DNA of 33,300 nt from a virus. The position numbers and the translations under genes were made by a program. The notes beneath the pieces are model-generated. The model was not told the DNA's origin. It did no database searches and worked only from the letters and a program-made list of their open reading frames with translations. Where the stretch lies: IMG/VR virus record IMGVR_UViG_3300025138_000177, positions 1-33,300 of that record. One strand, written 5' to 3'. Every line of letters starts with the position of its first letter. Position 1 is the stretch's first letter. Below are positions 825 to 28,521 of this stretch, piece by piece.

Positions 825-1256
825 ATGAAATTTAACTATTTAAAATACTGGAGAGTTATTAGGTATTACACTAAGGCTAAGTATGGTATAAGCACAGGAG
901 AGCTAGATATGCTGCTTTTTTTATATTCAGAAGATTACTTTAGTAAAAGCAAATTCAAAGAGTTTGACGAGCTATTAAGTTGGAACGTAAATAGATTTGA
1001 CAAGCTATTAAAAGAAGGGTGGATAGAATTGTTTAGAAAACGAGTAGGAAATAAAAAAGGATTGTACCAATTGTCTTATAAATCTAAAAGAATGCTTGAC
1101 TCTATATATAAAAAATTAAATGGCGATGAGATTCCTACTTCAGAATATAATCCTATCTTTCATAGAAACGTATCTTATACAGATAAAGTATATAGAAACT
1201 TTATTAAAGAAATGAATAAGACTATAAAACTACAACAACGTCTCTCTCAGAAATAA
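825..1256 (+). CDS. Putative winged-helix DNA-binding protein
   Basis: The product has 143 residues. The pattern of helices (around 8-90) followed by a wing-like stretch (GLYQLSYKSKRMLDSIYKKL) resembles a MarR/PadR-like winged helix: ISTGELDMLLFLYSED as an early helix, WNVNRFDKLLKEGWIELFRK as the recognition-helix region, then a beta-hairpin. The C-terminal third (SYTDKVYRNFIKEMNKTIKL) is a basic helix. It is the only plus-strand gene in the left 4 kb and its 3' end overlaps groES by 35 nt in a convergent arrangement. A role as a phage transcription regulator is inferred from fold resemblance only. No ligand-binding or enzyme motif is visible. Confidence 0.55.
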   Translation: MKFNYLKYWRVIRYYTKAKYGISTGELDMLLFLYSEDYFSKSKFKEFDELLSWNVNRFDKLLKEGWIELFRKRVGNKKGLYQLSYKSKRMLDSIYKKLNGDEIPTSEYNPIFHRNVSYTDKVYRNFIKEMNKTIKLQQRLSQK

Positions 1257-1479
1257 TAGTGCAAGGCTTATTGTCAATCAACAGAGTATAACCTGTTCGT
1301 GAATCAAAATATATAACATCTCCTTTAGAAATGTTATGCACTTCTGTTCCTGGTGCAATTACTTTAGCTTTCTTATATCTTAAAGCATCAGCATCTTTAT
1401 CAGAAAGTATTAACCCAGAGTCAGTTACAATCTCTTCTTCTATAATATCTATAGCAATATATTTATTTATCGGCTTCAT
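1222..1479 (-). CDS. groES: GroES co-chaperonin
   Basis: The 85-residue product is slightly shorter than bacterial GroES (about 95). It begins MKPINKYIAIDI; a mobile-loop region with IVTDSGLILSDKDADAL follows, where SGLIL matches the GGIVL that binds GroEL. Next come KAKVIAPGTEV, KGDVIYFDS and a C-terminal beta segment ending ISERDVVVVL. GroES caps the GroEL ring during ATP-driven folding. The gene overlaps the end of groEL by 17 nt and is transcribed after it, so the two are probably translationally coupled. The 3' end overlaps the convergent winged-helix-like gene. Partnership with the phage GroEL is inferred from adjacency. Confidence 0.9.
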   Translation of the reverse strand: MKPINKYIAIDIIEEEIVTDSGLILSDKDADALRYKKAKVIAPGTEVHNISKGDVIYFDSRTGYTLLIDNKPCTIISERDVVVVL

Positions 1480-3091
1480 TTGATTCGTATGTTCTCGCCA
1501 TTGTTATAATAGCATTAGTACTTAGTATAGTTGTAGCTACAGATACAGCATTTTGTAATGCGTGTTTAGTTACCTTCATAGGGTCAATTACCCCCATCTC
1601 TAATAAATCTCCATATACTTCATTCTTAACATCGTATCCGTGTATAGGATTGGCTATATCGTTGTATATTTCTTTATAGTCTAGTCCTGCATTCAACAGA
1701 ATTTGATGTATAGGTGCTTTTAATGCTTTTCCTAAAATTGCGTAAGCAATTTTTTTCGAGAGATTAGTTTCTTTATCCTCTAAAGCATCATAATTTTTAG
1801 CTACATTGTACAATGCAGTACCTCCGCCAGGCAAAATACCTTCTAAAAGTGCTGAACGTACCGCACAAACAGCGTCATCTACCCTGTCATACAGCTCTTT
1901 TTGCTCAATATCAGTCTGTCCACCTACATATATAACACCAATACCACCAGTTAATGAAGCAATTCTAGATAAAATAAAGTCTTTATCTCCTTTTTTAACT
2001 GCAAGTTTATGTTGTTCCCACAATTGTGCTACCCTTTCTTCTATAACATTACCATTCTCAGCGTCATCTTTTATGATTACAGTAGAATCACGACTAACTA
2101 TTACCTTAGATGCGTGTCCTAAATCATTAAAAGTAATAAGACTTAAGTCGTCACCAGTTTTTTCAGAGAAATATGTAGCTCCAACAGAGATTGCAATGTC
2201 TTGCATTAACTCGTGTTGCTTATATCCAAACTGTGGAGGATTGATATTACATATCTTTAAACCATTCTTCACAACATTAGCTGCTAAAGTATTTACTACG
2301 TTCTCACTACAAGGACATATAAGTAATAATTTTTTTCTGTCTTGAATAATTGGTTTTAATATATTCTCAATGTTTAATATATTATCAACCGAAGCATCAG
2401 AAACTAATATGTACGTATCATCTAATATACACTCGTCTTTCTTTTGGTCATTGATAAATAAACTTGAGTTGTATCCCCTCTCTACTTTTATACCATTAGT
2501 AATCTCATTGTAAGTAGAGCTAGTCTGTGAACGCTCCACAGTTACTATACCAGTCTTACCAACCTTGTCATATGTCTTTGCAATTGTAGTACCAATAGTC
2601 TTGTCTCCATTAGCAGATATTATAGCAACATCTTTTAATCTTCTTTTAGTAATTGGTTTTGATAAAGACTTTAGTTTAGTTATGATTGATGGCACCTCTT
2701 TATTAATATGTTTTAATATCTCAGTACGATTATGATTATCTTTCATCATATCACTTCCAGCCTTTACAATCGCTTCAGTTAATACAATAGCCGTAGTTGT
2801 TCCATCTCCAGCAGAGGTAGCAGTTTTATCAGCAGCCTCTTTCATCATACGTACAGCTAAGTTCTCAACTGGATGTAATAAGTCTACAGCCTTGGCTACA
2901 GTTACCCCATCTTTAGTTACAGTTATTCCTTGTGTGTGATTAGGAGATTCAATTAATACAGTATGTCCTCTTGGACCCAACGTACTTTTTACTGCATTAG
3001 CTATTTTACTTATCCCATTTATTAATGAGGTTCTGCCTGATTCTCCAAACTTCAGGTCTTTAGGAGAGTAACCTCCGCCTTGTGGATTCAT
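1463..3091 (-). CDS. groEL: GroEL chaperonin (60-kDa), phage-encoded
   Basis: The 542-residue length is normal for GroEL. Visible signatures are VKSTLGPRGHTV (about 35-45), TKDGVTVAKAVDL with Asp61, AGDGTTTAIVL with Asp96, and VDDAVCAVRSALLEGILPGGGTAL near 405-430, which holds the ATPase aspartate and the nucleotide-binding glycines. The flexible GGM-rich C-terminal tail of bacterial GroEL is absent; the protein ends YESNEADK. The N-terminal MNPQGGGYSP extension is also unusual. Chaperonins refold proteins in an ATP-driven double ring, and phage copies are thought to fold virion proteins. Here groEL precedes groES, whereas bacterial operons are usually groES-groEL. A promoter element lies just upstream. 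Confidence 0.97.
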   Translation of the reverse strand: MNPQGGGYSPKDLKFGESGRTSLINGISKIANAVKSTLGPRGHTVLIESPNHTQGITVTKDGVTVAKAVDLLHPVENLAVRMMKEAADKTATSAGDGTTTAIVLTEAIVKAGSDMMKDNHNRTEILKHINKEVPSIITKLKSLSKPITKRRLKDVAIISANGDKTIGTTIAKTYDKVGKTGIVTVERSQTSSTYNEITNGIKVERGYNSSLFINDQKKDECILDDTYILVSDASVDNILNIENILKPIIQDRKKLLLICPCSENVVNTLAANVVKNGLKICNINPPQFGYKQHELMQDIAISVGATYFSEKTGDDLSLITFNDLGHASKVIVSRDSTVIIKDDAENGNVIEERVAQLWEQHKLAVKKGDKDFILSRIASLTGGIGVIYVGGQTDIEQKELYDRVDDAVCAVRSALLEGILPGGGTALYNVAKNYDALEDKETNLSKKIAYAILGKALKAPIHQILLNAGLDYKEIYNDIANPIHGYDVKNEVYGDLLEMGVIDPMKVTKHALQNAVSVATTILSTNAIITMARTYESNEADK

Positions 3092-4196: not shown

Positions 4197-4874
4197 ATGA
4201 TAAATTTAATGACAAATGAAAGGGAAATGCTACAAAGTAGTAGTATTTCTAATCTGTTCGGCACAATTTCAACAATAACAAATGATTTAAATATTGCGAA
4301 CAGAAGTAAACTACAAAACAAAATTTTACTAGGAAAGAAAGCAATTGAGTTTAAGACTTGGTTGAAATCTGAAGAAGCAAATCAAGTATTTGAAAATGCT
4401 GATTTATGCAAATGGTCACTAGAAGAAATGTCTCTAAAGGTATTTTCAGTTAAGCAAAGCCAATTAAACAGAATGATTAAAGCTAGTAAGAATCAAGACA
4501 AATTAGACCAATTTTTAACTAAATGCAATCAAGAAGAAGCGGAAGGAAACAAGGTTATCCGTTCAGTAGATAATTTCAATAAATTTTGCAAAGGTTTACT
4601 AGAGACAAACGAAGAAGAAGTAAATGCAACAATACCAACAATATTTACTTTATCATTTAAACGTAAATCTTTAGATGAAACTGCTGAAAGAAATATTGCA
4701 TTGAGAATCAACGAATCTCTAGAAGTAATTACTAAAAATGATAGCGAAGAAATCAAGTTAGCAATTGCATTTTTAAATCAACGATTGGAATCAAATGCAG
4801 CCGCTGAATCTATGGAGGGCAGAGTCTTAGCCTTAAGGAATGAAGCATTATTAGAAACATCAAACTTATCTTAA
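4197..4874 (+). CDS. Helical protein of unknown function upstream of the amidoligase
   Basis: The 225-residue product is predicted almost entirely alpha-helical. A segment at about 48-100 (LGKKAIEFKTWLKSEEA, then WSLEEMSLKVFSVKQSQLNR) has the look of a helix-turn-helix-containing region of plasmid or phage proteins; this is a weak resemblance. The C-terminal half is acidic and alanine/glutamate-rich. There is no signal peptide or membrane helix. It ends 27 nt before the amidoligase gene, which follows an AACAAACAATAAA leader, so the two probably form one transcription unit. It could be a regulator, a partner or a substrate of the amidoligase. I do not recognise the family. Confidence 0.65.
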   Translation: MINLMTNEREMLQSSSISNLFGTISTITNDLNIANRSKLQNKILLGKKAIEFKTWLKSEEANQVFENADLCKWSLEEMSLKVFSVKQSQLNRMIKASKNQDKLDQFLTKCNQEEAEGNKVIRSVDNFNKFCKGLLETNEEEVNATIPTIFTLSFKRKSLDETAERNIALRINESLEVITKNDSEEIKLAIAFLNQRLESNAAAESMEGRVLALRNEALLETSNLS

Positions 4875-4901
4875 TAACTAACAAATAAAACAAACAATAA
4901 A

Positions 4902-5987
4902 ATGACAAATTCAATAAATGGTATTAACTACCAAAACATCTTACCTAATCTAGCCGTAAATGGTCGAGATAGGCTAATAGAAAGAAATAGAATTGCACCA
5001 TATCATCAAGGTTGCAGTCCAATATTTTTAAATACTACTAGTACAAAAGTAGATTTACAAGGGATGACAAAAAAGCAAATAGAAGCAAACACAAAAATTG
5101 TAGATGGTAACATTAAAACCAAATTTACAATAGGGATGGAGGTTGAGAAAATGACTTTACCAACAAGCGTAGTTACTAGGAGACAATTGAAGAAAAACCC
5201 TACATTATTTGCAGCTATTGAGGATGATTCTACGGTAGTTTATGAAGCAATAACGAATATTTTACCCCTAGTACCATCTAGTAAATGGAGAAATAAAGTG
5301 TTCAATATGATGACCGAAGCAAAAGAGTTTATCAATGAGGAATTTGCTAGTAGTAATACACTAGAAAATGGTGCCTATAAATGCGGTGGACATATTACAA
5401 TAGCAAATGAAAAGTTTGATGATAGCAAAGAATACTTTGAAAGTTTAAGACCATATGTTGCAGTATTTTATGCAATGAATAAGAAAAGATTAGCCAATAG
5501 ATGGTGTTATTCTAATCTTAATGTAGAAAGTAATGAGCAAAGAAGTAATCATATTATCCCATCAAATGGTAAATATTCTCCTATCAATTTGAAGTCACAT
5601 GGTTGTGTAGAATTTAGATTGTTTTCTAGATTTACTAGTGTAATACAAATGAAAAATAGATACAAGTTGATGCAAATTTTATGCGAATGTGCAGACAATA
5701 GAACATCGGTAGCGAAGTTTAATAAACTAATCTTACCTATCTTAACAAAAATGTATGAAAGTGAAGATAAGGCAAAAGAAACGATAGCTCTAGCGAAATC
5801 ATTTAACAAACTATTAATGACAGATAAAATTGATGAAAAGATTTTACCATTTCTTTATAGTAGAAACAATAACTATTCTTACAATAATGAGAATGGTTTT
5901 GAAACAATAGCTAAAAGATTTTACACTCCTAAAGCCTTAAGAATGTGGAGAAGCGGAGAAATCAAATTTAGTAAAATGGTTGGTTGA
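4902..5987 (+). CDS. Putative amidoligase (COOH-NH2 ligase, GCS/GS-like fold)
   Basis: The 361-residue protein carries the signature order of the Amidoligase_2-type COOH-NH2 ligases. FTIGMEVEK has paired metal-binding glutamates (Glu80, Glu82). EDDSTVVYEAITNI (107-120) matches the usual D-x-S...E-hxS strand. CGGHITIA (161-168, His164) matches the C-G-x-H strand, and VEFRLFSRF (236-244) matches the E-x-R-x-F motif. Such enzymes use ATP to join a carboxylate to an amine, making amide or isopeptide bonds. Family analyses (Iyer and colleagues, 2009) linked them to class II glutamine amidotransferases and GGCT/AIG2 proteins. The gene at 6601 encodes both of those. Specificity cannot be read here. 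The N-terminal 70 residues are poorly conserved-looking and could bind a partner. Confidence 0.75.
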   Translation: MTNSINGINYQNILPNLAVNGRDRLIERNRIAPYHQGCSPIFLNTTSTKVDLQGMTKKQIEANTKIVDGNIKTKFTIGMEVEKMTLPTSVVTRRQLKKNPTLFAAIEDDSTVVYEAITNILPLVPSSKWRNKVFNMMTEAKEFINEEFASSNTLENGAYKCGGHITIANEKFDDSKEYFESLRPYVAVFYAMNKKRLANRWCYSNLNVESNEQRSNHIIPSNGKYSPINLKSHGCVEFRLFSRFTSVIQMKNRYKLMQILCECADNRTSVAKFNKLILPILTKMYESEDKAKETIALAKSFNKLLMTDKIDEKILPFLYSRNNNYSYNNENGFETIAKRFYTPKALRMWRSGEIKFSKMVG

Positions 5988-5997
5988 TTAATTTTAA

Positions 5998-6013
5998 TGG
6001 TCGTTAACGACCA
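5998..6013. promoter_or_regulatory. GTCGT-N2-ACGAC palindrome, copy 2
   Basis: TGGTCGTTAACGACCA is a perfect 16-bp palindrome 11 nt after the amidoligase stop. It is not followed by a T-run, and a separate terminator lies at 6055-6080, so it is better read as a protein-binding site. Confidence 0.65.
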
Positions 6014-6021
6014 AATCTTAG

Positions 6022-6044
6022 GTCTGGTTATCCAGATACCAGAC
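6022..6044 (+). other. Hairpin between the palindrome and the terminator
   Basis: GTCTGGT (6022-6028) and ACCAGAC (6038-6044) form a perfect 7-bp stem with a 9-nt loop. A nested CTGG/CCAG alternative exists. Without a T-run it is not a terminator by itself; it may stabilise the mRNA 3' end. Confidence 0.45.
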
Positions 6045-6054
6045 AGAATAAAAG

Positions 6055-6080
6055 GAGGGGTAATTTACCCCTCTTTTTTT
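6055..6080 (+). terminator. Rho-independent terminator after the amidoligase
   Basis: GAGGGGTAA and TTACCCCTC (6055-6063 and 6065-6073) form a stem with a very short loop, in practice GAGGGG/CCCCTC with a 7-nt loop. It is followed by seven T residues (6074-6080) and should end the 4197-5987 transcript. Confidence 0.8.
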
Positions 6081-6139
6081 ATATATACATTTCCCCCAAT
6101 GGGCATTTTTGTCCCCAAATGGGGAATCAAACATCAAAC

Positions 6140-6182
6140 TTTTGGACACGACATCGTATCTTTTTGGACACGATAGAGTATC
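6140..6182. repeat. Tandem 21-nt repeat, two copies
   Basis: Units at 6140-6160 and 6162-6182 both begin TTTTGGACACGA and end GTATC, differing at 3 of 21 positions, with a 22-nt period. They lie in the 613-nt island between the amidoligase and the amidotransferase fusion gene, and their role is unknown. Confidence 0.5.
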
Positions 6183-6191
6183 AGGAACCTG

Positions 6192-6388
6192 ATGAATCAG
6201 GTGGTCAAAAAAGTTGACTACGCAGGACAGGAAAAGAACAGGAACAGGTGGTAAACTATGCAGGTACATTGCACAATAAAAGGTTAAAAAAGGGGGATGC
6301 TGAGGTATTGGAAGCATTGAGAAAGTCTGTTAGAACGCAGCTATGGAGGTCAAAATTCAAGGAGAAGGAGGTAAATCTGCAGATTTAA
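6192..6388 (+). pseudogene. Possible frameshifted small gene (about 65 codons)
   Basis: An ATG at 6192 opens a 20-codon frame (MNQVVKKVDYAGQEKNRNRW). The -1 frame is open from 6218 to 6388 without an ATG and reads EQEQVVNYAGTLHNKRLKKG, then AEVLEALRKSVRTQLWRSKF. Joined near 6233 these would give a charged helical protein. No classical slippery heptamer is seen at the junction. An imperfect internal duplication is present: CAGGTGGT...ACTACGCAGG and CAGGTGGT...ACTATGCAGG. The stretch is more GC-rich than its surroundings. It may be a decayed gene, a sequencing error, a programmed frameshift or a chance frame. Confidence 0.3.
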
Positions 6389-6394
6389 GCTATT

Positions 6395-6412
6395 TTGGTC
6401 GTAGACGACCAA
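6395..6412. promoter_or_regulatory. GTCGT-N2-ACGAC palindrome, copy 3
   Basis: TTGGTCGTAGACGACCAA has 8-bp arms around a non-palindromic AG centre. It lies about 85 nt upstream of the TTTG of the 6497-6528 promoter, matching the arrangement at copy 4, so an operator role is likely. Confidence 0.65.
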
Positions 6413-6434
6413 TTCAAAAAACTAACTCGTCTTC

Positions 6435-6469
6435 ACCCAAGCTGGGTAAAATTTACCCAAGATGGGTAA
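6435..6469. repeat. ACCCAAG-N-TGGGTAA direct repeats with palindromic junction
   Basis: ACCCAAGCTGGGTAA (6435-6449) and ACCCAAGATGGGTAA (6455-6469) have a 20-bp period. The junction TGGGTAAA-A-TTTACCCA (6443-6459) is itself a palindrome. The pair ends 27 nt upstream of the -33 element at 6497. It is a candidate operator, and the upstream terminator stem contains a similar GGGTAA/TTACCC core. Confidence 0.5.
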
Positions 6470-6496
6470 GCCTACAATAAAATAAAGGTCAGATTA

Positions 6497-6528
6497 TTTG
6501 GCTATGTCTAATTAATGTCTTATCTTTG
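6497..6528 (+). promoter_or_regulatory. Bacteroidota-type promoter (copy of the 8979 promoter)
   Basis: TTTG at 6497-6500 and TATCTTTG at 6521-6528 are separated by exactly 20 nt, a strong match to TTTG-N20-TAnnTTTG. The interval GGCTATGTCTAA is repeated in the 8979-9010 promoter. Transcription should begin near 6535, which excludes the TTG at 6526 as a start codon. Confidence 0.8.
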
Positions 6529-6600
6529 TACAATAATCAGAGGTCAGAGATAGCAAAGCCAAGCGGCAGAGTAGTATCACTCCTCACAAACAACAAACTT

Positions 6601-7773
6601 ATGTGTATAATAATAGTAAAACAGAAAGGTAATAAGGTACCTATGCAAACCTTAAAAAATTCAGCACGAATCAATCAGCACGGACTAGGCATTATTTGGC
6701 TAGATACATATAGTGTAGAGTATCACAAATCTAATGACTACAAGTTACTTGATACATCGAGACCATATATAGCACATTTTAGATATGCAACAAAAGGTGC
6801 AATCAATCTTGAGAACACCCACCCATTTAATTGTGGTAAATTTTCAGATGAATTCTTGTTTCATAATGGAACTATACAAGGCTATGGAGACAACAAGACT
6901 TGCGATAGCAAAGCACTAGCACGAGAACTAGGCGGTGTACCAAGAACAGAATGGAAAGACAAGCTAGGTAAGTATGACTCAAGATTTGTTTCTGTTAATA
7001 CAAGAAACAGAACGTTTCAAATCTACAACAGAAACCTTTGGTTTAACCAAGACAACATTTGGTATTCTAAAACAAATGTAATCCAAGACACCATTGTAGG
7101 TGTGTATGGAACTTTAAGAAAAGGACTAAGTAATAGCGGTCATTTAAAAAATGCGAAGTTTATATCTAAAGCATACACTCAAAACCCTTATCCTTTAGAG
7201 GTTAGCGGTTTACCTTATTTGCACGATGTTGTTGGTGTAGGTAAGAAAGTAGTACTAGAAGTTTATGCGGTTAACAAGGACACTCTAGCAACTCTTGACC
7301 GACTAGAAGGACACCCTCGACACTATGCTAGAAAGCAGATAACTCTTAACTTAGAGAAAGGCGGTACTAAACTATGTTGGGTATACTTTATACAGACAAG
7401 ACCCTTTAACCCTAACACTAGATGTATAAGCGACTATACTTTAGAGAAGCCAAAGAGACCAAGAATAGATTATAACAACTATACATACAACCCTTATAAA
7501 ATGGTGCCTAGGTATAATAAACAATACAATAATTTATTTGCAACTCCCAATCCTTTCCCTCAGATAGAAGTAGATACTGAATTTACTGATGAAGATGTTA
7601 AGAAATATCAATCAGATGCTTGGGCTGATGCTCAGAGAGATGCTGAAGCAGAAACAAAGTATTGTTGCACTTGTATAACTCCTTTGGTAGAGGACACAAC
7701 AGAGGTTAGCAACTCTAGATTTTATTGTGAAGAATGCAATGCAAGTTTTACAGAAGATGAGGTCTTGAGATAA
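6601..7773 (+). CDS. Class II glutamine amidotransferase fused to a GGCT/AIG2-like domain
   Basis: The ATG at 6601 places Cys2 right after Met (MCIIIVK), as required for the N-terminal nucleophile of class II amidotransferases. Also present are HFRYATKGAINLENTHPF and FHNGTIQ, the usual H-x-R-x-AT and HNG motifs; together they span about residues 2-160. From about 165 a gamma-glutamyl cyclotransferase-like domain follows, with VGVYGTLRKG and LDRLEGHPRHYARKQ (acidic residue Glu236). The C-terminal 40 residues hold C-C-x-x-C and C-x-x-C pairs, a likely zinc ribbon. The first domain would release ammonia or transfer glutamine amide; the second would cleave gamma-glutamyl-amines to 5-oxoproline. 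Fusion beside the amidoligase supports one pathway. The substrate is unknown. Confidence 0.8.
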   Translation: MCIIIVKQKGNKVPMQTLKNSARINQHGLGIIWLDTYSVEYHKSNDYKLLDTSRPYIAHFRYATKGAINLENTHPFNCGKFSDEFLFHNGTIQGYGDNKTCDSKALARELGGVPRTEWKDKLGKYDSRFVSVNTRNRTFQIYNRNLWFNQDNIWYSKTNVIQDTIVGVYGTLRKGLSNSGHLKNAKFISKAYTQNPYPLEVSGLPYLHDVVGVGKKVVLEVYAVNKDTLATLDRLEGHPRHYARKQITLNLEKGGTKLCWVYFIQTRPFNPNTRCISDYTLEKPKRPRIDYNNYTYNPYKMVPRYNKQYNNLFATPNPFPQIEVDTEFTDEDVKKYQSDAWADAQRDAEAETKYCCTCITPLVEDTTEVSNSRFYCEECNASFTEDEVLR

Positions 7774-8942: not shown

Positions 8943-8958
8943 TGGTCGTACACGACCA
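8943..8958. promoter_or_regulatory. GTCGT-N2-ACGAC palindrome, copy 4
   Basis: TGGTCGT-AC-ACGACCA has 7-bp arms. It lies 20 nt upstream of the TTTG of the 8979-9010 promoter, so a bound regulator would sit next to RNA polymerase. Confidence 0.65.
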
Positions 8959-19812: not shown

Positions 19813-22800
19813 TTATCTAAAATTTTGGTAATTTTTATTTCTAGTTCTTTGTCTGCTTTCGTTAAGTCTTTGAGTAGGACTTGCTTGGTTATAGTTATAT
19901 TTCTTTTTCTTTTTCTTTTTTGGCTTAAATCTTTCTGGAATACTTCCTGGAGATATACCAGCAAATGTCAATAACCAGTATGCTAAATGGTCTTGGTCGT
20001 TAGCCATATTATAAGCGGCTTCAATTGGAGTTAATTGTACACCCATAGCAAACTGCATTAATTCATACATAATAGGTATTAGTATAGGGTCATCTTTATT
20101 TTCCTCATTAAGAATAGCACCAAATGTTTCGGCAAACTCGTTTAATGGACTAGTAATATTAGCATCAGCTTTTTTCCAACCCTTACCTTCTTTTTCATTT
20201 ATAAAAGTTTGAATTGCTTGACCTAAAGTAGGAATAGCATTAACTAATCCTATTAATCCATACATTTTAGTTACTCTTTCCCAGAATTTTTCTCTATCAT
20301 CAAAATCATCATCTTTATCTGACTTTCCTAATAATAATAAAGCTATATTTCCTATTGCTAAAAAGTACATTGTACTTAAAGAAGCGTTAAGACCCAAAGC
20401 CCTAACATCTTTCATATCTGGAACTTTGTTTTGAGCAGTATCTTTAGAAATATTAGAAGCAGCAATATAAGTATTGTTAGCTAATTGTATCGGTGAACTT
20501 GTAAATGATGTAAATAATTTTGCTAAACCGTTTTTAGAAGATTGAATTCCTACCTTGTCTATACCTCTACGGCTTTGATTGGTTAAATTGTAATCATTAA
20601 AAACTCTTAGAGCATCTTCGTGAGAAAATCCTTGATTATCTACCAGCTCATCATACACGATAAGATAACCTATAATACCTCCTATATCTCCTACGTTGGT
20701 AAAGTATCCAAATGTTTGAGCAATTAATTTATAAGAAGCTCCATATTTTTTAATCATCTCAGGAGTTCCTTCTATTTCTCTTCCACTATATAAAGCATAT
20801 ATATTTCCCTCTGCCGCTTCTAAAGCTCTAGAATTAAGAGTAGCAGAAATTTTTCTCATTTTAGCTACACTACTTTTATAATTAGCAAAATATTTTACAG
20901 CTTTAGCATTAAATTCAGCAAACGTAATGGCTTCACTAGGAATTGAACTAAGAGCTTGAGCTAATAATTCTGGCACTTGCAAAATAACATTTCTGTTTTT
21001 TTCAAATATAGGGTCACCAGCTTTTCTTTTTTTATACACACTATATTTACCAGCAGTATATAAAGGATATGCCAATACATAAGAAGAAGCTTGTTTAGGA
21101 ACTTGCATTAATTTTAATGAAAGATAATAGCTAGTCATTAGATTAACACCTCTAGAAATTATCATCGCTTTATCCACTCCTCTTGTTATTCCTTTAGGGT
21201 CAAGTTCTACATTAATATTATATACAACTGATTTTTTTAATCCAGTAAAATCTAATAATGCTTTTACTGAAGGTATACGAAGTACTTGTTCTAAAATTTT
21301 AGCAGGTTCAGCATAAGCTTCAAATCTTGAGGTTTGTTCTAAATAATTATCTAATACTTGAAAAAATCCTAAATTTAAAATCATTCTTAAATCTTCTTCA
21401 TTTTTAGTTCTTTCAGAAAAACTGTCTGGTGCAAAGGCTTGAATAGTGGATAAAGGACTTTGTGGGTCTACACTTAAACTTTCGCCTTTACTAGGTCTCG
21501 TTGATGTTTCACCATCTTTATTTTTAACGCTCCTGCTTTCAGTAGCTTGAGGAAAATAATTTTCTTCATAAGGTAAGTTAACTCCAAATATTGTTCTATG
21601 AATATCATTAGCTTGTTCATATCCTACAGTATTAAGATAATCAATTACATTATCTACAAAACTTATCATTTCTTTTCCTATAAACTTCTCTATTTGAGTA
21701 ATTACTTTATCATCAACACCATCACGTAAAAGTATTCTTCTTCCTCTAGGGTTTTGAGATAAAGCATACATTCTTAAAGCTTCATCAGTAGTAAATACAG
21801 ACGTAGTTTCTCCGTCAAATCCCTGTTTGTTTATGTTTTTTAAAGTTATATTACCTTTAGTTTCTGCTAGTTGTTTTATATATTGATAAGCACTAACATT
21901 TCCAAAATCAGCACCCATTAAACGACCTAGAACATTTGGATATTTTTTCTTTTTATATATTTCGTTAGCAATATCAGACATTGCATTTTGTTTTCCTTGA
22001 AATATTTGATGATAAATTTCATTAGCATCAGTTAGTCTATAAAAGAATTCATCAGTAAAAAATTTTCCTTGTCTAGAGTCAAGTGAATTATAAAATAAAT
22101 TTCCTGCAGCTAACATATCTTTTGTTTGTAGTTTTATTTCTCTTACAAAATCACTAAGTTTTTGTCCAGCCACAGTTTGAACATAAGATTTCATTGAGTT
22201 TATAAAACTATTTTTACCATTTGTATCAAACCCATCTAAAATCTGTTTTCTTCTTTGTTGAGATAAATTATCTGTATTAACTGGTGTTCCATCTGGAAGA
22301 AATAATTCTGGATTAGTTTTAATTATTTGAGCATCAGCTTGTGTTTTTAACTTGTCTACTTCTTCTTTTCTTTTTGCCTGGTCTTCTGCATATTGTTCTC
22401 TACCTATAGCTCTTTGATTTTTTAAATCTTCAAATACTTGCTCTACTTCTTGTAAAGACATTGTAGGAAGACCTCCTAATATTGCAAAAGCATCTGCTCT
22501 AGCTACTAAATCTCTAGCAGCTTTGTTTGTTGGGTTAGAAATAGCAGCTCTAACAGTATCTTCTAAAGCTGATAACTCTATGATTTCATTAAAAAATACA
22601 TCTACATCTCCAGTAATATAAGCGTCAATTAATTTTTTTGCAGCAATAAAAAATTCTTTTGTAGTAACGTCTATATCAGTTGACTTTCTAGTCTTATTAG
22701 ATGCAGTTGTGCCAGTACGAGCATTGGTATCAATAAGTTTTTTTATTTTATCAATTACTTTGCTTTTAATTTTTTCATTTTGAGTATCAATTTCTTGAAT

Positions 22801-25800
22801 TACACTCTCCACTTGTCTTAAATAATTCTTTTTATTTACTCCAGCAATTAATTTATTTAACTTAGTCATCACAGCTCTAGGAACCAAAAGTCCTTTAGGA
22901 AAATTAAGTTTTATATAATCATTAAGTTCGCTTTTAACTTTCTGAATACTTTTTTCAGTGTTTCTTCTAACTTGCAGTTTACTTCTTAACTGTCTTATTT
23001 CTTTTTGAACATCTTTATTTGCTGATATTCCTACCGACCTATCAAAAGCAATTACTAAATTATCTTGTATTTCTTGTGATTGAGATGCAAACATAGGGTT
23101 AGATTCTAATGATTTTTTTGCAAACTCTCTAACTTCAGCAGGTGTTTTAGCTGCTGCAATTAATTTTGTATTAACAGGATATTTTCTTAATATTTGTTGA
23201 ACTGTTAAACCTTTAGTTGCTGCAGGGTATTTTCTTTTAATTTTTTCAATATGTTTTTTTCTAACTTGTGTAGTAGTTCCTTTACCAATAAAATCTAAAA
23301 CTTTATTAAAAGTTTCAGTAAATAAAGCTAATCCAATATTAGAACCACCTTTCATATCTCTAAAAGCTAAAGGCAATGTTTGACCCTCAATCATTTCAAA
23401 TGCTAAAGCGTCATTAATTTGTTCAACACTAAAATTATTTCTACCTTTTAATACTTCACGTATTTGAGAATCTATAATCCCTAAATCTCTAGATTTTTTA
23501 ACTATCACATCTATATCAGTTCCTTCAGGTACTTGTATTTCTTGTTGAGATAACGATGGTAATCTCATTTGACCATCTTGTTCTATTTCAACCCCTACAT
23601 TTTCATCTATAACTTGTCCTCCTAATAACTCTCTAAGAGACATATTTACAAAATCTTCCAGAGACATTCCTTTAATGTCTTGAGCAAATGTTTTACTAGA
23701 AAACAAATCTTTAAGTTTCATAAATTGTTTCTTAACAAATGCCATAAGAAGGTCAAACCACTTTGCTAATTTATCTTTTACTGATTGAGACTGTTGAGCT
23801 CCTTCAGCTCTTCTTCTACCTTCATTAGCTATATATTCAACAAGAGCTTCTTCTCTTGCTTTTCTTCCTTCACCATATATTTTTACTTGTTTATCGTATT
23901 CTTCTTGTCCTTTTTCAGTAGATGTTATAAGCTGTAATCCTCTTTTGTAAAGAGAACTTCCTTTTTCTCCAGACCTTTTGCTTTTTAAATAATCAATAAA
24001 CATATGACCAAATTCGTGCAATGGAAGAGTAAGTGTTTTATCATCTGGATTTAAATATATACTACTATCTCCTTTTGCTCCATAAGCAATATATCCGTCT
24101 TTAGTTTGTCTTTTTACTACCCCTGGTTGATTTATGTTTTTTTCAAAAGCTTCTACATTATCAAACACTTTAACACCAGGAAATGCTTTACTTAATAACT
24201 CAACTAATTCTTTTCTTGTTTCTGGAGAAACTTCTTTTCCTTGTCTTGCTTCTCTTTTTAATTTTTCTCCTTTAAATAAATCTAATTTTCTTTTACCTCC
24301 TTCTTGAGCAATATGGTACCCAGTTACTTTTCCTGTAACTTCATCATTATTAGTTATTAAATCATATCCAAAAGTTTGTAATCCCCTTTTCAATGGACTT
24401 ATATTTGAAATTGTATTAGGAAAAAATCCAGTTTTAGTGTCATAACCATAGTCTAGCAATAAGTTTTTTAAAGGTATACGTCTTTGACTTAAACTTACAT
24501 CAGAACCTCCTTTTCTATCTCGTTTTACTTCAGACCATTCTTGTCTAGCCCAATCTGGAATTTTAGATTTAGAGGTAACATTTTCATTTAATGCTCCTTC
24601 GTCAACTAAAACAATAGTACCATCAGCTCTTTGACCCCAGTTTCTTGGAGCTTTAAAATCATTCCATAATAAATCATAATTTAAAAAGTCTTGTAAGTCT
24701 AACTCTTGCATTGTATCCATTAACTCTCTAGTTCTATTTCTAACTTCAAAATCTCTAGCTGAAAATTTCTCCAAAGGCTTTAAAAATGCTCTTACTGCTT
24801 TATCATTACGTGGAACTTTTTCTACAACAATATAATCTGTTCCTACTTCATAAATTTCTGGGACCTTACCTCCTAACATATTTGCATCTCCATATCCGAT
24901 AGATGCGTTTTGTTGCAGACCTCTAGGATTTTTAGCAATTTTAATTACTCTATCATTACCTATGTCATAGACATCTCTTGTTGTACCACCTGGAATTCTT
25001 TTGTCTTTTATTGCACTTAAAGGAACTTTACTAAATGCCACTACATTGGTATTACTTGTTCGGTCATCAGTAAACAACTCACTAACATTTTTCTGGCTTA
25101 AAGAAACATTTCCTCTTTTAGCTTCTCTTTTAGCTTCAGCTATATCTTCTTTATAAGACTGTATTTGTGACTTTGCATCTTCTCTTAAATCAATCTTTTG
25201 TTCTTTAGTAAGACCTGGTGCTTTTAATTCTTCTTTAAGTTGTTGTTTAACAGATAAAATCTCATTATTTAAATCTTCTAATTCTACACTTAAATCTTCT
25301 GCAGCAATTTGGTTTTCTTCTACCTCTGTTTGCGTTTCGGAGGTATTCTCTACCTCTGTTTCTGTTTCTATTATTTCTTCCTCTATTACAGTTCCCTTAA
25401 CATCAGTTAACTCTTTAGTTTCAAGATTGAAAAAAGGTTTATTAAATAGTTTATTAGAAAGTTGGCTTAACGCTTGTATGTCTTCATCTTCTGGATTAAA
25501 AACTTTATTAGTCGCTAAAGTATTTAAAGCTTGTTTAATCAAACCTATTTCTTTTCCAAATATAGTTGTAGAAGTTGGGGATATAGATAATTGATTTTGT
25601 AATCTTATCAACTCCATCATTGTAGTTTGAATAGGTAAATCTTTAGAATTAGTAACTTGCCCATCATTCATTTGCATTAAAGTCTTAGCTTCTCTTTTAG
25701 CTCCTATATTTTCCTGTATATCTTGAACAGTAGATGGTGATAGTAATTTTGTTTCTTGCATTGAATTTGCCCAATTACTTACCTGCTCACTATTACCAAT

Positions 25801-28521
25801 TCTTTGAGAGTAATTAGCAGTACCTTGTTCTCCTGACATTCTTTCTCCAGCAATAATTCTTTCATTTTTTAAAGAAGTTACAAATGCATTCATAACCATA
25901 TTGCTTGAATTACTTCCAAATGCACCAATTGCTTCTAAACCAATTTCTTCTGCTCTAAATTCTTTATCGTTTAATAATTGATTATTTAATTGAGCTAAAT
26001 ATTCACCATAAGCTTCACCACTAGGGTCAATAACCGCTCTTTCAGCAGCCAACAAACCAAATTTTTTCCACCCAAAGCTATTTCTACCCATTAATATTCT
26101 ACCAGCCATTCTAGCTGTAAAATAATCTATTATAGCAATAGGTATACCTCTTGCTAAACCAACATCTCTTGCTTCTGTCCAAACATTATCATCTTGAACG
26201 GCTTTTAAAACACTTTCTGGACTAGCTATATCATATCCTTTTAATGTCATTGCTTCAAAAGCAGCATTAGTATATTCCATTGCAACTAAAGTTCCAGCCG
26301 CTCCTACTTGCATTCCTTGAACTAAACCTTTTACCCCAGCTATTGCTCTTGCTTGAGGAGGTCCTTTCATTAATGTGGCATCTATTGTACCTTTCATAAG
26401 ACCTGCTCCTAAAACCATTTGTACACCATAAGGTAATATTTCAGAAAAAGAACCAGCCGATAAAGACAATCCCATATCTAAAGGGTTGTCCAATAATACA
26501 TCTAAACTTTCTCTAAAACCTTTGCTTCTATTCCATTCTAACATTTCTACAGAAGTACCCCTGCTGGAAGTGGTTGATTCCATTAGTTTATCCGAAATAT
26601 ATTTTGCCGCTTCTTCTCGAGACATTCCTAATATATCTTCTGTTTCTGTAGGACTATCAGATACACCCATAGCTAAAATAACTTTACCAGCTTCTCCTCT
26701 TTTTCTACGAGTATTCCATTCATTAGAAACATTATTCCACATTCCTTTTAATACTTTTCCTTGAGCGGATTTAAGATTTTTAGAATCTAAATATGTTTTT
26801 GAAACAAAAAATTGGTCAGCAGCATATTTTTTATCCATATCTATCTGAGCTTTTGCTGCTACCATAAAATTTACTAAACTTATATCTTCTTCATTATAGT
26901 CTCCTTCAGAAATCATTAAAGGTAAATTACTTATTTTTTTACCAAATTTTTCTATAGCAAAATTATTTAAAACAACTTCTGACATCTGTGCTTGTTTATT
27001 AATATTATAAGCATCATCAATATATACTTGTCTTCGTTTAGCCGCTTCTATATCCCAGGCTATGGTAGTAGCCACAAAATTTTCATCTTGTGTAATGTTG
27101 TATAGATTGTCTCTTTGTTCATCTCTTTTTTTTCTGTAAGCTTGAATATCTGTTCTTAACTTTCCGTCTTCATCAAATAAATATGGGTAAAGTAATTTTT
27201 CTTCTTCAGTAACTTCTGGAACATTTCTATTTATAGGAGTAACGTCTCCTGTTTTTATAGCTAAATCTCCCATTGACATATCTATTTTTTTTAAATCGTC
27301 AATAAAAAAAACTTCATCTCTTGCTTTTTCATATTCATTAACAGCTTTAAATATTGAAGTATAATTATCTATTCCATTTCTTTTAAAAAATAGTTGTTTT
27401 TCTAAGTCTACTGTATTAGCTTCTTTCCACAAACCTCCAGCAAAATCATCAGCTTGGTCTTTAGTATCAAAAGCATACAACTCTCCTCGTTCACGAGCTA
27501 AAGCAATCATTTCTTTAGTTTGTGTTTTTGGATTAAATTCAATCCAATCTTCTGAGTAAGTAGATTGAGCGTCAGGGTTTTTTGGGAATAACGAAGGTAA
27601 GGCATAATTAACTCCATCCATTTCTACTGTTGACATTAATACAGAAGAATAATCTTTAGTATCTGAATTCCATCTTGCTCCAGAACGTGACTCTTTTACT
27701 TTTAATGATTTAGCTATAACTTCATCATTTGGTGCAGGAGCGGCTGGATTTTGCCCATAGAATTCTAAAAAATTATCAAACTCATCTTGATTTTGTACAG
27801 CTCCATCTTTTAGTTTTATATTAAAAGTATGTAATCCGTTTGTAGAAACCACGGTAACAGATTCATTACCACTTCCTTTTACTGGCAAGTTCATAGTTTT
27901 TAAATCTCCAGTCAACGCATCTTTTAAAAGTGGTGCGTTTGGATTATCTAATACAAAACCATATTTTCCTATATTATCTTTAAGGCTTTTGTGAATATTT
28001 TGTGGAGAATAGTCTATGTTTTTTTTATCGGCAAAAAAATCTGGTGAAGTTATTAAATCTCCATAATTATCATAAGAATAACTGTTAGTCATATCTAACG
28101 GCTGTTCTCCTCTGTAGTCCTTATATTCTTTTGAGCCTTTTTTTATTAAAGGTACTTCTTCTCCAGTTGCTATATTAATATAAACACCTTTTGAATTTTT
28201 TTTAACTTCTGGAAATTTTTCTTCTTTTTTTTTTTTTTCGTCTGGAAAGTATGATTGGTAACTTTTTTTTAACCAGTCTAGAGCACCAGTTAAAGGGCTT
28301 GACTCTGGTTTTTTTTCTTTTTCTTCAACTAACTCAAACATTTCTGCAAACTGATTAACATCTGTAAAAGAATTTTGGTCAACTAACTCAAACAACTCTT
28401 CTGGAGAAGCATCTTTATACATATCTATAAAACCTTCCGCATTTGAAAAATTATCTTTTTCTATAACAAAATCATTATATATATCGTTAAGTGTTGTAAG
28501 ATTTTTTAATTCGTCCTCCAT
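19813..28521 (-). CDS. Giant polyvalent ejection protein (gp16 position), 2,902 aa
   Basis: The protein is by far the largest here. An N-terminal acidic region and a domain near 285-385 with STVEMDGVNYALPSLFP and FDTKDQADDFAGGLWKEA resemble segments found in phage internal virion proteins. A hydrophobic region lies at about 670-890. Between about 1150 and 1330 is a protein-kinase-like fold: VIKIAK with Lys1194, NDFKAPRN with Asp1288 and Lys1290, and VDEG with Asp1307. A metallopeptidase motif HEFGH (1502-1506) follows, with EEALVEYIANEG near 1555. The C-terminal third is helical with membrane-like segments and ends in a polylysine tract. LSQ motifs at 1140, 1343, 1656 and 2086 mark the boundaries. 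Gene order suggests the T7 gp16-like ejection protein. Confidence 0.75.
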   Translation of the reverse strand: MEDELKNLTTLNDIYNDFVIEKDNFSNAEGFIDMYKDASPEELFELVDQNSFTDVNQFAEMFELVEEKEKKPESSPLTGALDWLKKSYQSYFPDEKKKKEEKFPEVKKNSKGVYINIATGEEVPLIKKGSKEYKDYRGEQPLDMTNSYSYDNYGDLITSPDFFADKKNIDYSPQNIHKSLKDNIGKYGFVLDNPNAPLLKDALTGDLKTMNLPVKGSGNESVTVVSTNGLHTFNIKLKDGAVQNQDEFDNFLEFYGQNPAAPAPNDEVIAKSLKVKESRSGARWNSDTKDYSSVLMSTVEMDGVNYALPSLFPKNPDAQSTYSEDWIEFNPKTQTKEMIALARERGELYAFDTKDQADDFAGGLWKEANTVDLEKQLFFKRNGIDNYTSIFKAVNEYEKARDEVFFIDDLKKIDMSMGDLAIKTGDVTPINRNVPEVTEEEKLLYPYLFDEDGKLRTDIQAYRKKRDEQRDNLYNITQDENFVATTIAWDIEAAKRRQVYIDDAYNINKQAQMSEVVLNNFAIEKFGKKISNLPLMISEGDYNEEDISLVNFMVAAKAQIDMDKKYAADQFFVSKTYLDSKNLKSAQGKVLKGMWNNVSNEWNTRRKRGEAGKVILAMGVSDSPTETEDILGMSREEAAKYISDKLMESTTSSRGTSVEMLEWNRSKGFRESLDVLLDNPLDMGLSLSAGSFSEILPYGVQMVLGAGLMKGTIDATLMKGPPQARAIAGVKGLVQGMQVGAAGTLVAMEYTNAAFEAMTLKGYDIASPESVLKAVQDDNVWTEARDVGLARGIPIAIIDYFTARMAGRILMGRNSFGWKKFGLLAAERAVIDPSGEAYGEYLAQLNNQLLNDKEFRAEEIGLEAIGAFGSNSSNMVMNAFVTSLKNERIIAGERMSGEQGTANYSQRIGNSEQVSNWANSMQETKLLSPSTVQDIQENIGAKREAKTLMQMNDGQVTNSKDLPIQTTMMELIRLQNQLSISPTSTTIFGKEIGLIKQALNTLATNKVFNPEDEDIQALSQLSNKLFNKPFFNLETKELTDVKGTVIEEEIIETETEVENTSETQTEVEENQIAAEDLSVELEDLNNEILSVKQQLKEELKAPGLTKEQKIDLREDAKSQIQSYKEDIAEAKREAKRGNVSLSQKNVSELFTDDRTSNTNVVAFSKVPLSAIKDKRIPGGTTRDVYDIGNDRVIKIAKNPRGLQQNASIGYGDANMLGGKVPEIYEVGTDYIVVEKVPRNDKAVRAFLKPLEKFSARDFEVRNRTRELMDTMQELDLQDFLNYDLLWNDFKAPRNWGQRADGTIVLVDEGALNENVTSKSKIPDWARQEWSEVKRDRKGGSDVSLSQRRIPLKNLLLDYGYDTKTGFFPNTISNISPLKRGLQTFGYDLITNNDEVTGKVTGYHIAQEGGKRKLDLFKGEKLKREARQGKEVSPETRKELVELLSKAFPGVKVFDNVEAFEKNINQPGVVKRQTKDGYIAYGAKGDSSIYLNPDDKTLTLPLHEFGHMFIDYLKSKRSGEKGSSLYKRGLQLITSTEKGQEEYDKQVKIYGEGRKAREEALVEYIANEGRRRAEGAQQSQSVKDKLAKWFDLLMAFVKKQFMKLKDLFSSKTFAQDIKGMSLEDFVNMSLRELLGGQVIDENVGVEIEQDGQMRLPSLSQQEIQVPEGTDIDVIVKKSRDLGIIDSQIREVLKGRNNFSVEQINDALAFEMIEGQTLPLAFRDMKGGSNIGLALFTETFNKVLDFIGKGTTTQVRKKHIEKIKRKYPAATKGLTVQQILRKYPVNTKLIAAAKTPAEVREFAKKSLESNPMFASQSQEIQDNLVIAFDRSVGISANKDVQKEIRQLRSKLQVRRNTEKSIQKVKSELNDYIKLNFPKGLLVPRAVMTKLNKLIAGVNKKNYLRQVESVIQEIDTQNEKIKSKVIDKIKKLIDTNARTGTTASNKTRKSTDIDVTTKEFFIAAKKLIDAYITGDVDVFFNEIIELSALEDTVRAAISNPTNKAARDLVARADAFAILGGLPTMSLQEVEQVFEDLKNQRAIGREQYAEDQAKRKEEVDKLKTQADAQIIKTNPELFLPDGTPVNTDNLSQQRRKQILDGFDTNGKNSFINSMKSYVQTVAGQKLSDFVREIKLQTKDMLAAGNLFYNSLDSRQGKFFTDEFFYRLTDANEIYHQIFQGKQNAMSDIANEIYKKKKYPNVLGRLMGADFGNVSAYQYIKQLAETKGNITLKNINKQGFDGETTSVFTTDEALRMYALSQNPRGRRILLRDGVDDKVITQIEKFIGKEMISFVDNVIDYLNTVGYEQANDIHRTIFGVNLPYEENYFPQATESRSVKNKDGETSTRPSKGESLSVDPQSPLSTIQAFAPDSFSERTKNEEDLRMILNLGFFQVLDNYLEQTSRFEAYAEPAKILEQVLRIPSVKALLDFTGLKKSVVYNINVELDPKGITRGVDKAMIISRGVNLMTSYYLSLKLMQVPKQASSYVLAYPLYTAGKYSVYKKRKAGDPIFEKNRNVILQVPELLAQALSSIPSEAITFAEFNAKAVKYFANYKSSVAKMRKISATLNSRALEAAEGNIYALYSGREIEGTPEMIKKYGASYKLIAQTFGYFTNVGDIGGIIGYLIVYDELVDNQGFSHEDALRVFNDYNLTNQSRRGIDKVGIQSSKNGLAKLFTSFTSSPIQLANNTYIAASNISKDTAQNKVPDMKDVRALGLNASLSTMYFLAIGNIALLLLGKSDKDDDFDDREKFWERVTKMYGLIGLVNAIPTLGQAIQTFINEKEGKGWKKADANITSPLNEFAETFGAILNEENKDDPILIPIMYELMQFAMGVQLTPIEAAYNMANDQDHLAYWLLTFAGISPGSIPERFKPKKKKKKKYNYNQASPTQRLNESRQRTRNKNYQNFR

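Follow-up and report, generated by a model that had tools for sequence, protein, structure and literature searches.

Genes coding for amidoligases, ATP-grasp proteins, glutamine amidotransferases (GATase) and gamma-glutamyl cyclotransferases (GGCT) form a cassette in podoviruses, for which an alteration of peptidoglycan and a block of superinfection have been proposed (PMC5498523). This "peptidoglycan modification" cassette was also treated in PMC10580990, and its gene list is given in PMC3890496. Phages carrying it are Pseudoalteromonas phages PSA-HP1 and RIO-1, phiEco32, LUZ24, tf and CW02 (PMC5498523, PMC3890496), and expression of the corresponding genes in phage HP1 starts immediately upon infection (PMC7082346). 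In the literature as well, an action on peptidoglycan is hypothetical (PMC5498523, PMC10580990). Here, we analysed a locus of this kind in IMG/VR virus record IMGVR_UViG_3300025138_000177, 33,300 bases in length (hereafter the window), which is probably a fragment since relatives with the same gene order reach ~57-64 kb. Three + strand genes occupy the span 4197-7773 and code for proteins of 225, 361 and 390 aa. The second is a putative amidoligase and the third a predicted fusion between a class II GATase and a gamma-glutamylamine cyclotransferase (GGACT); we consider it rather probable that both together are a partly fused, two-gene version of the phage amidoligase cassette, which would make and edit amide bonds with the envelope as the likely target.

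As in the podoviral cassette, the amidoligase, class II GATase and AIG2/GGACT (i.e. GGCT-type) families are found together in one locus, near replication genes. The difference is that a single amidoligase is present here, that GATase and GGACT are fused and that a cysteine ribbon is added. Concerning the other cassette members, neither ATP-grasp (PF08443) nor the second COOH-NH2 ligase (PF14395) had a match in 14 IMG/VR relatives, Podoviridae sp. ctfjg026 (MW202828) or phage C75C1 (OQ984151), in a search where two cassette phages did give matches and where the window itself counts as a fragment. Since these two families are not detectable in the relatives, the module of this lineage appears to be a reduced, fused variant of the known cassette. 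The phage module as such, which the initial annotation had inferred, had already been published as a predicted cassette.

Other phages allow a finer comparison. Cellulophaga phage phi14:2 (Crassvirales, Bacteroidota host) carries the same enzyme families in one gene run (gp048-gp052), but as five separate, unfused genes, including ATP-grasp and the PF14395 ligase. Phage C75C1 (CDS0025 and CDS0020) possesses a 43% identical GATase-GGACT fusion, with an amidoligase located 5' on the same strand; however, this amidoligase is a standard PF12224 protein without significant BLAST match to that of the window, the fusion lacks the cysteine ribbon and the phage backbone is another one. MW202828 belongs to the same lineage as the window, with GroEL/GroES, a homologue of the 225-aa protein and an amidoligase directly 5' of the fusion, although its amidoligase (locus L009, 13218-14942) has an N-terminal extension of 242 residues without Pfam match. 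That this extension could be a fused 225-aa protein was rejected, as it gave no significant BLAST match to the 225-aa protein and a separate homologue exists. As for more distant cases, a PF12224 amidoligase lies beside or near GATase_6 in Arthrobacter phages Salgado and Ottawa, with no GGACT nearby, and beside or near GGACT in Geobacillus phage GR1 and Bacillus phage 055SW001, with no GATase nearby.

Direct searches of Pfam and PHROGs with the amidoligase gave only chance-level matches, and fold and profile-profile comparisons were therefore needed. The PF12224 (Amidoligase_2) profile matched none of the 74 members of the amidoligase family, nor did it match in the 14 related contigs and MW202828, and a profile search of the PDB sequences returned nothing. 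When compared by hhalign with seven PF12224-type phage proteins, two of them sharing 91% identity, the family aligned with a probability of 95.4 and an E-value of 1.9e-8, motif against motif. Membership in Amidoligase_2 was thus not recovered by the PF12224 profile itself, while it was supported by the profile-profile comparison. The GMEVEK (G78-x-E80-x-E82-K83), CGGH (161-164) and EFRLF (237-241) motifs, from which the ligase had been recognised in the initial annotation, are all present and align with those of PF12224. The order of the PF12224 motifs (GxExE, DxS, E, GxH, ExR) is found as G78xE80xE82, D109xS/T111, E115, G162-G163-H164 and E237xR239. Among the 74 sequences, G78, E80, E82, K83, E107, D109, E115, R130, C161, G163, H164, R196, E237 and R239 are invariant, and S/T111 is the only motif position that varies.

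The AlphaFold2 model of the amidoligase is confident, with a predicted local distance difference test (pLDDT) of 90.3 and a predicted template modelling score (pTM) of 0.91. Its Foldseek matches in the PDB were PafA (the best), GmaS, YbdK and glutamine synthetase (GS), with E-values from 2.6e-4 and probabilities of ~0.99; template modelling (TM) scores were low (~0.3), so that the superfamily is clear and the substrate is not. Among viral models, it matched many annotated amidoligases, e.g. from phages tf, Salgado and phi14:2. The protein thus falls inside the amidoligase fold, in agreement with the initial annotation. PafA/Dop, GmaS and YbdK share the glutamine-synthetase-like ligase fold, but are only ~10% identical to the window amidoligase and have known substrates. 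On its motifs and modelled structure, the 361-aa protein is a divergent branch of the amidoligase fold, outside the current PF12224 model, and a predicted glutamine-synthetase-fold ligase with the residues expected for an ATP/metal-dependent activation of carboxylates.

Concerning the 390-aa protein, its start is the ATG at 6601, which gives a Met-Cys N-terminus; the TTG at 6526, which figures as the start in the open reading frame list, overlaps the promoter at 6497-6528. The Pfam search identified GGACT (PF06094, E 3.7e-17) and GATase_4 (PF13230, E 4.7e-7), and both domains were found in all 57 aligned fusion members. In the N-terminal nucleophile (Ntn) domain, C2, R61, T64, H74, N89, G90 and D102 are invariant (57/57). 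The cysteine following the methionine and the glutamine-binding residues of class II glutamine amidotransferases are thus present, R61, N89-G90 and D102 being what we take as the counterparts of the glutamine-binding residues of GlmS. By fold, this domain matched GFAT and the glutaminase domain of GlmS (1xff), which bears out the class II amidotransferase already read from the Met-Cys start. The following domain, noted at the outset as GGCT/AIG2-type, agrees with this family in its YGTL loop (169-172) and its catalytic-type E236, both invariant in the 57 members, as well as in its fold. Its top match by both sequence and fold is human GGACT (3jub/3juc/3jud; Foldseek E 1.8e-10), and E236 aligns with the Glu altered in the E82Q structure 3jud. 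At the C-terminus, the ribbon C355-x2-C358 and C376-x2-C379 retains all four cysteines in 56 of the 57 members and probably binds zinc. The fusion is therefore best described as a predicted glutaminase-type Ntn domain with an intact catalytic Cys, joined to a gamma-glutamylamine cyclotransferase that retains the catalytic Glu. Both genes evolve under purifying selection: against a close relative, dN/dS (nonsynonymous to synonymous substitution rates) amounts to ~0.19 in the amidoligase gene and ~0.12 in that of the fusion.

These matches also bear on a modification of proteins or peptides, in which the ligase would attach glutamyl or amine groups to a protein of the host or the phage, while the GGACT domain would undo the isopeptide bonds, in the manner of PafA/Dop. 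PafA, the best PDB match of the ligase fold, is a Pup ligase, and the cyclotransferase domain has its best match in human GGACT, which cleaves epsilon-(gamma-glutamyl)-lysine. However, GmaS, YbdK and GS score nearly as high as PafA, with a TM-score of ~0.3 to all of them, and no Pup-like or tag peptide is conserved near the genes in all members; we regard such a role as rather unlikely.

A scan of IMG/VR revealed at least 225 contigs with a GATase-GGACT fusion, of which 80 were retained for the analysis of the locus. Given these contigs and two annotated phage genomes with the same architecture, the fusion cannot be called unusual, as it had been in the initial annotation. The amidoligase is located 5' of the fusion, on the same strand, in all 73 loci with ~2 kb or more of upstream sequence, the gap between both genes varying from 76 to 4,876 bp. 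The eight fusion loci without amidoligase, one of them from a scan of cellular genomes, all end less than 2 kb upstream. Conversely, the fusion lies downstream in 67 of 77 amidoligase loci, and the other ten contigs end within 2.5 kb. The two genes thus co-occur in related phages, as the proposal of a common system implied. This pairing is partly due to shared ancestry, since most fusion contigs belong to one phage lineage, and tree mirroring (0.75 for the amidoligase-fusion pair vs. 0.69-0.87 for other pairs) gave no special co-evolution beyond the common ancestry of the phages. C75C1 provides independent support for the association, and the neighbouring pairs of amidoligase with either GATase or GGACT in other phages support it further. 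The occurrence of phages in which only one of the two partners accompanies the ligase points to a common product of both domains.

Such single pairs, i.e. amidoligase with GGACT without an adjacent GATase and the converse, would also fit a shared gamma-glutamyl product of low molecular weight. The module would then serve to produce a gamma-glutamyl metabolite or to recycle it, or help to scavenge nitrogen; the GATase would act as an EgtC/Dug3-like gamma-glutamyl hydrolase instead of an ammonia donor. GmaS, a gamma-glutamylmethylamide synthetase, is among the top fold matches. On the other hand, the glutamine-binding residues are all retained, which is also compatible with a normal glutaminase, and no transport or metabolic genes are conserved beside the module, so that this small-molecule role, too, is doubtful. 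The position of the module, immediately 5' of replication and recombination genes, might recall a modification of phage DNA, with the ligase and amidotransferase decorating a modified base. No hydroxymethylase, base kinase, deazaguanine or glycosyl genes were found among the window genes searched, the complete genomes not being exhaustively covered, and we hold this to be very improbable.

The ~610 bp gap between the amidoligase and the fusion holds two of the three exact copies of the palindrome TGGTCGTNNACGACCA (5998-6013, 6396-6411 and 8943-8958; none expected), together with a Bacteroidota-type promoter, in line with the regulated promoter region that the initial annotation had attributed to the fusion gene. 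With a strict pattern (TTTG, 17-24 nt, TAnnTTTG), 38 of 89 distinct fusion genes have a promoter in the 300 bp that precede them, usually at a distance of 50-75 nt from the ATG, compared with 2.2% of random windows of this length. This enrichment supports a separate transcript for the fusion, which would be read by the host polymerase. Copies of TGGTCGTNNACGACCA precede both Bacteroidota-type promoters, at 6497 and 8979. The palindrome is common only to the closest relatives and could represent either an operator or an RNA hairpin; a search of Rfam found no RNA. As to the host, the virus infects Bacteroidota-type bacteria. The only close match among cellular genomes, a contig (L168) from a Cytophagales metagenome-assembled genome, was rejected as cellular, its gene content being that of a phage. 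This contig of 56 kb matches the phage lineage gene by gene, and its bin hints at Cytophagales as the host of the lineage.

As a whole, the variant cassette could operate as follows. Using ATP, the ligase would activate a carboxylate, probably that of a glutamyl side chain, for coupling to an amine or to ammonia. This ammonia could be drawn from glutamine by the GATase domain, which might instead hydrolyse gamma-glutamyl amides. The GGACT domain would remove gamma-glutamyl groups as 5-oxoproline, and the module would thus form bonds as well as edit them. It probably acts early in infection, with a component of the host envelope as its likely target, e.g. the stem peptides of peptidoglycan, as proposed for the longer cassette. 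This target is the least certain step: the envelope is our best inference, drawn solely from the published hypothesis and the host-type promoter. Several points weigh against it. The envelope link is an analogy with a hypothesis that is itself conjectural. The ATP-grasp and PF14395 ligases were not found in the phages searched, and the chemistry may therefore differ. Finally, GGACT substrates are L-gamma-glutamyl amines, and the peptidoglycan stem has D-Glu.

No conserved small precursor or tag peptide common to all members was found between or beside the genes; families of 55, 67 and ~100 aa near them are not convincing substrates because they are restricted to part of the lineage or form loose clusters. 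It is conceivable, though unlikely, that the two proteins form a minimal system which writes and edits gamma-glutamyl or isopeptide bonds: the ligase would attach a group to a host target not so far known to be modified, and the Ntn-GGACT protein, perhaps guided by its ribbon, would release or trim it.

Table 1. Features of the amidoligase locus, with positions in the window.
Feature	Position	Strand	Basis or remark
225-aa protein, immediate upstream neighbour of the amidoligase	4197..4874	+	conserved in relatives
Amidoligase, predicted divergent Amidoligase_2-like, 361 aa	4902..5987	+	alignment, hhalign, AlphaFold, Foldseek
Palindrome TGGTCGTTAACGACCA	5998..6013		right behind the amidoligase stop
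Palindrome TGGTCGTAGACGACCA	6396..6411		~100 bp 5' of the promoter
Inverted repeat ACCCAAGCTGGGTAAA / TTTACCCAAGATGGGT	6435..6467		5' of the promoter
Putative Bacteroidota-type promoter (TTTG ... TAnnTTTG) of the fusion gene	6497..6528	+	motif match
Predicted GATase II-GGACT fusion, 390 aa	6601..7773	+	Pfam, alignment, Foldseek
Predicted class II glutamine amidotransferase (Ntn) domain, residues 1 to ~160	6601..7080	+	PF13230, Foldseek
Predicted GGACT-type gamma-glutamyl cyclotransferase domain, residues ~165-270	7093..7410	+	PF06094, sequence and fold matches
Four-cysteine ribbon, C-terminal, C355/C358/C376/C379	7657..7743	+	conservation

The initial annotation of the span had both enzymes right, but overlooked the cysteine ribbon and the conserved gene of the 225-aa protein. 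The family of the latter stands directly 5' of the amidoligase in 67 of 80 loci. The protein matched no family in a Pfam search, and its gene shows a dN of ~0.12 and a dS of ~1.05 when compared with locus L007. Elsewhere in the window, GroES (PF00166) and GroEL (PF00118) are both encoded by the phage on the - strand (1222-3091); GroEL was found in 58 and GroES in 44 of the 80 related loci, and MW202828 has both. Adjoining the chaperonin genes, a 143-aa protein (825-1256) is kept in ~41 related loci, and MW202828 has, at the equivalent position, a protein with a repressor annotation. A 2,902-aa protein without Pfam family at E 0.01 is the product of the largest gene in the window, which lies on the - strand (19813-28521).

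The amidoligase cassette of phages was noticed more than 15 years ago and has had no known product since. In the lineage described here, the ligase belongs to a divergent family that escapes the current Pfam and PHROGs models, and the fusion suggests that the GATase and GGCT parts act as a single unit. As one ligase and one bifunctional partner are always found together, the locus offers a simple version of the cassette for reconstitution and substrate tests.

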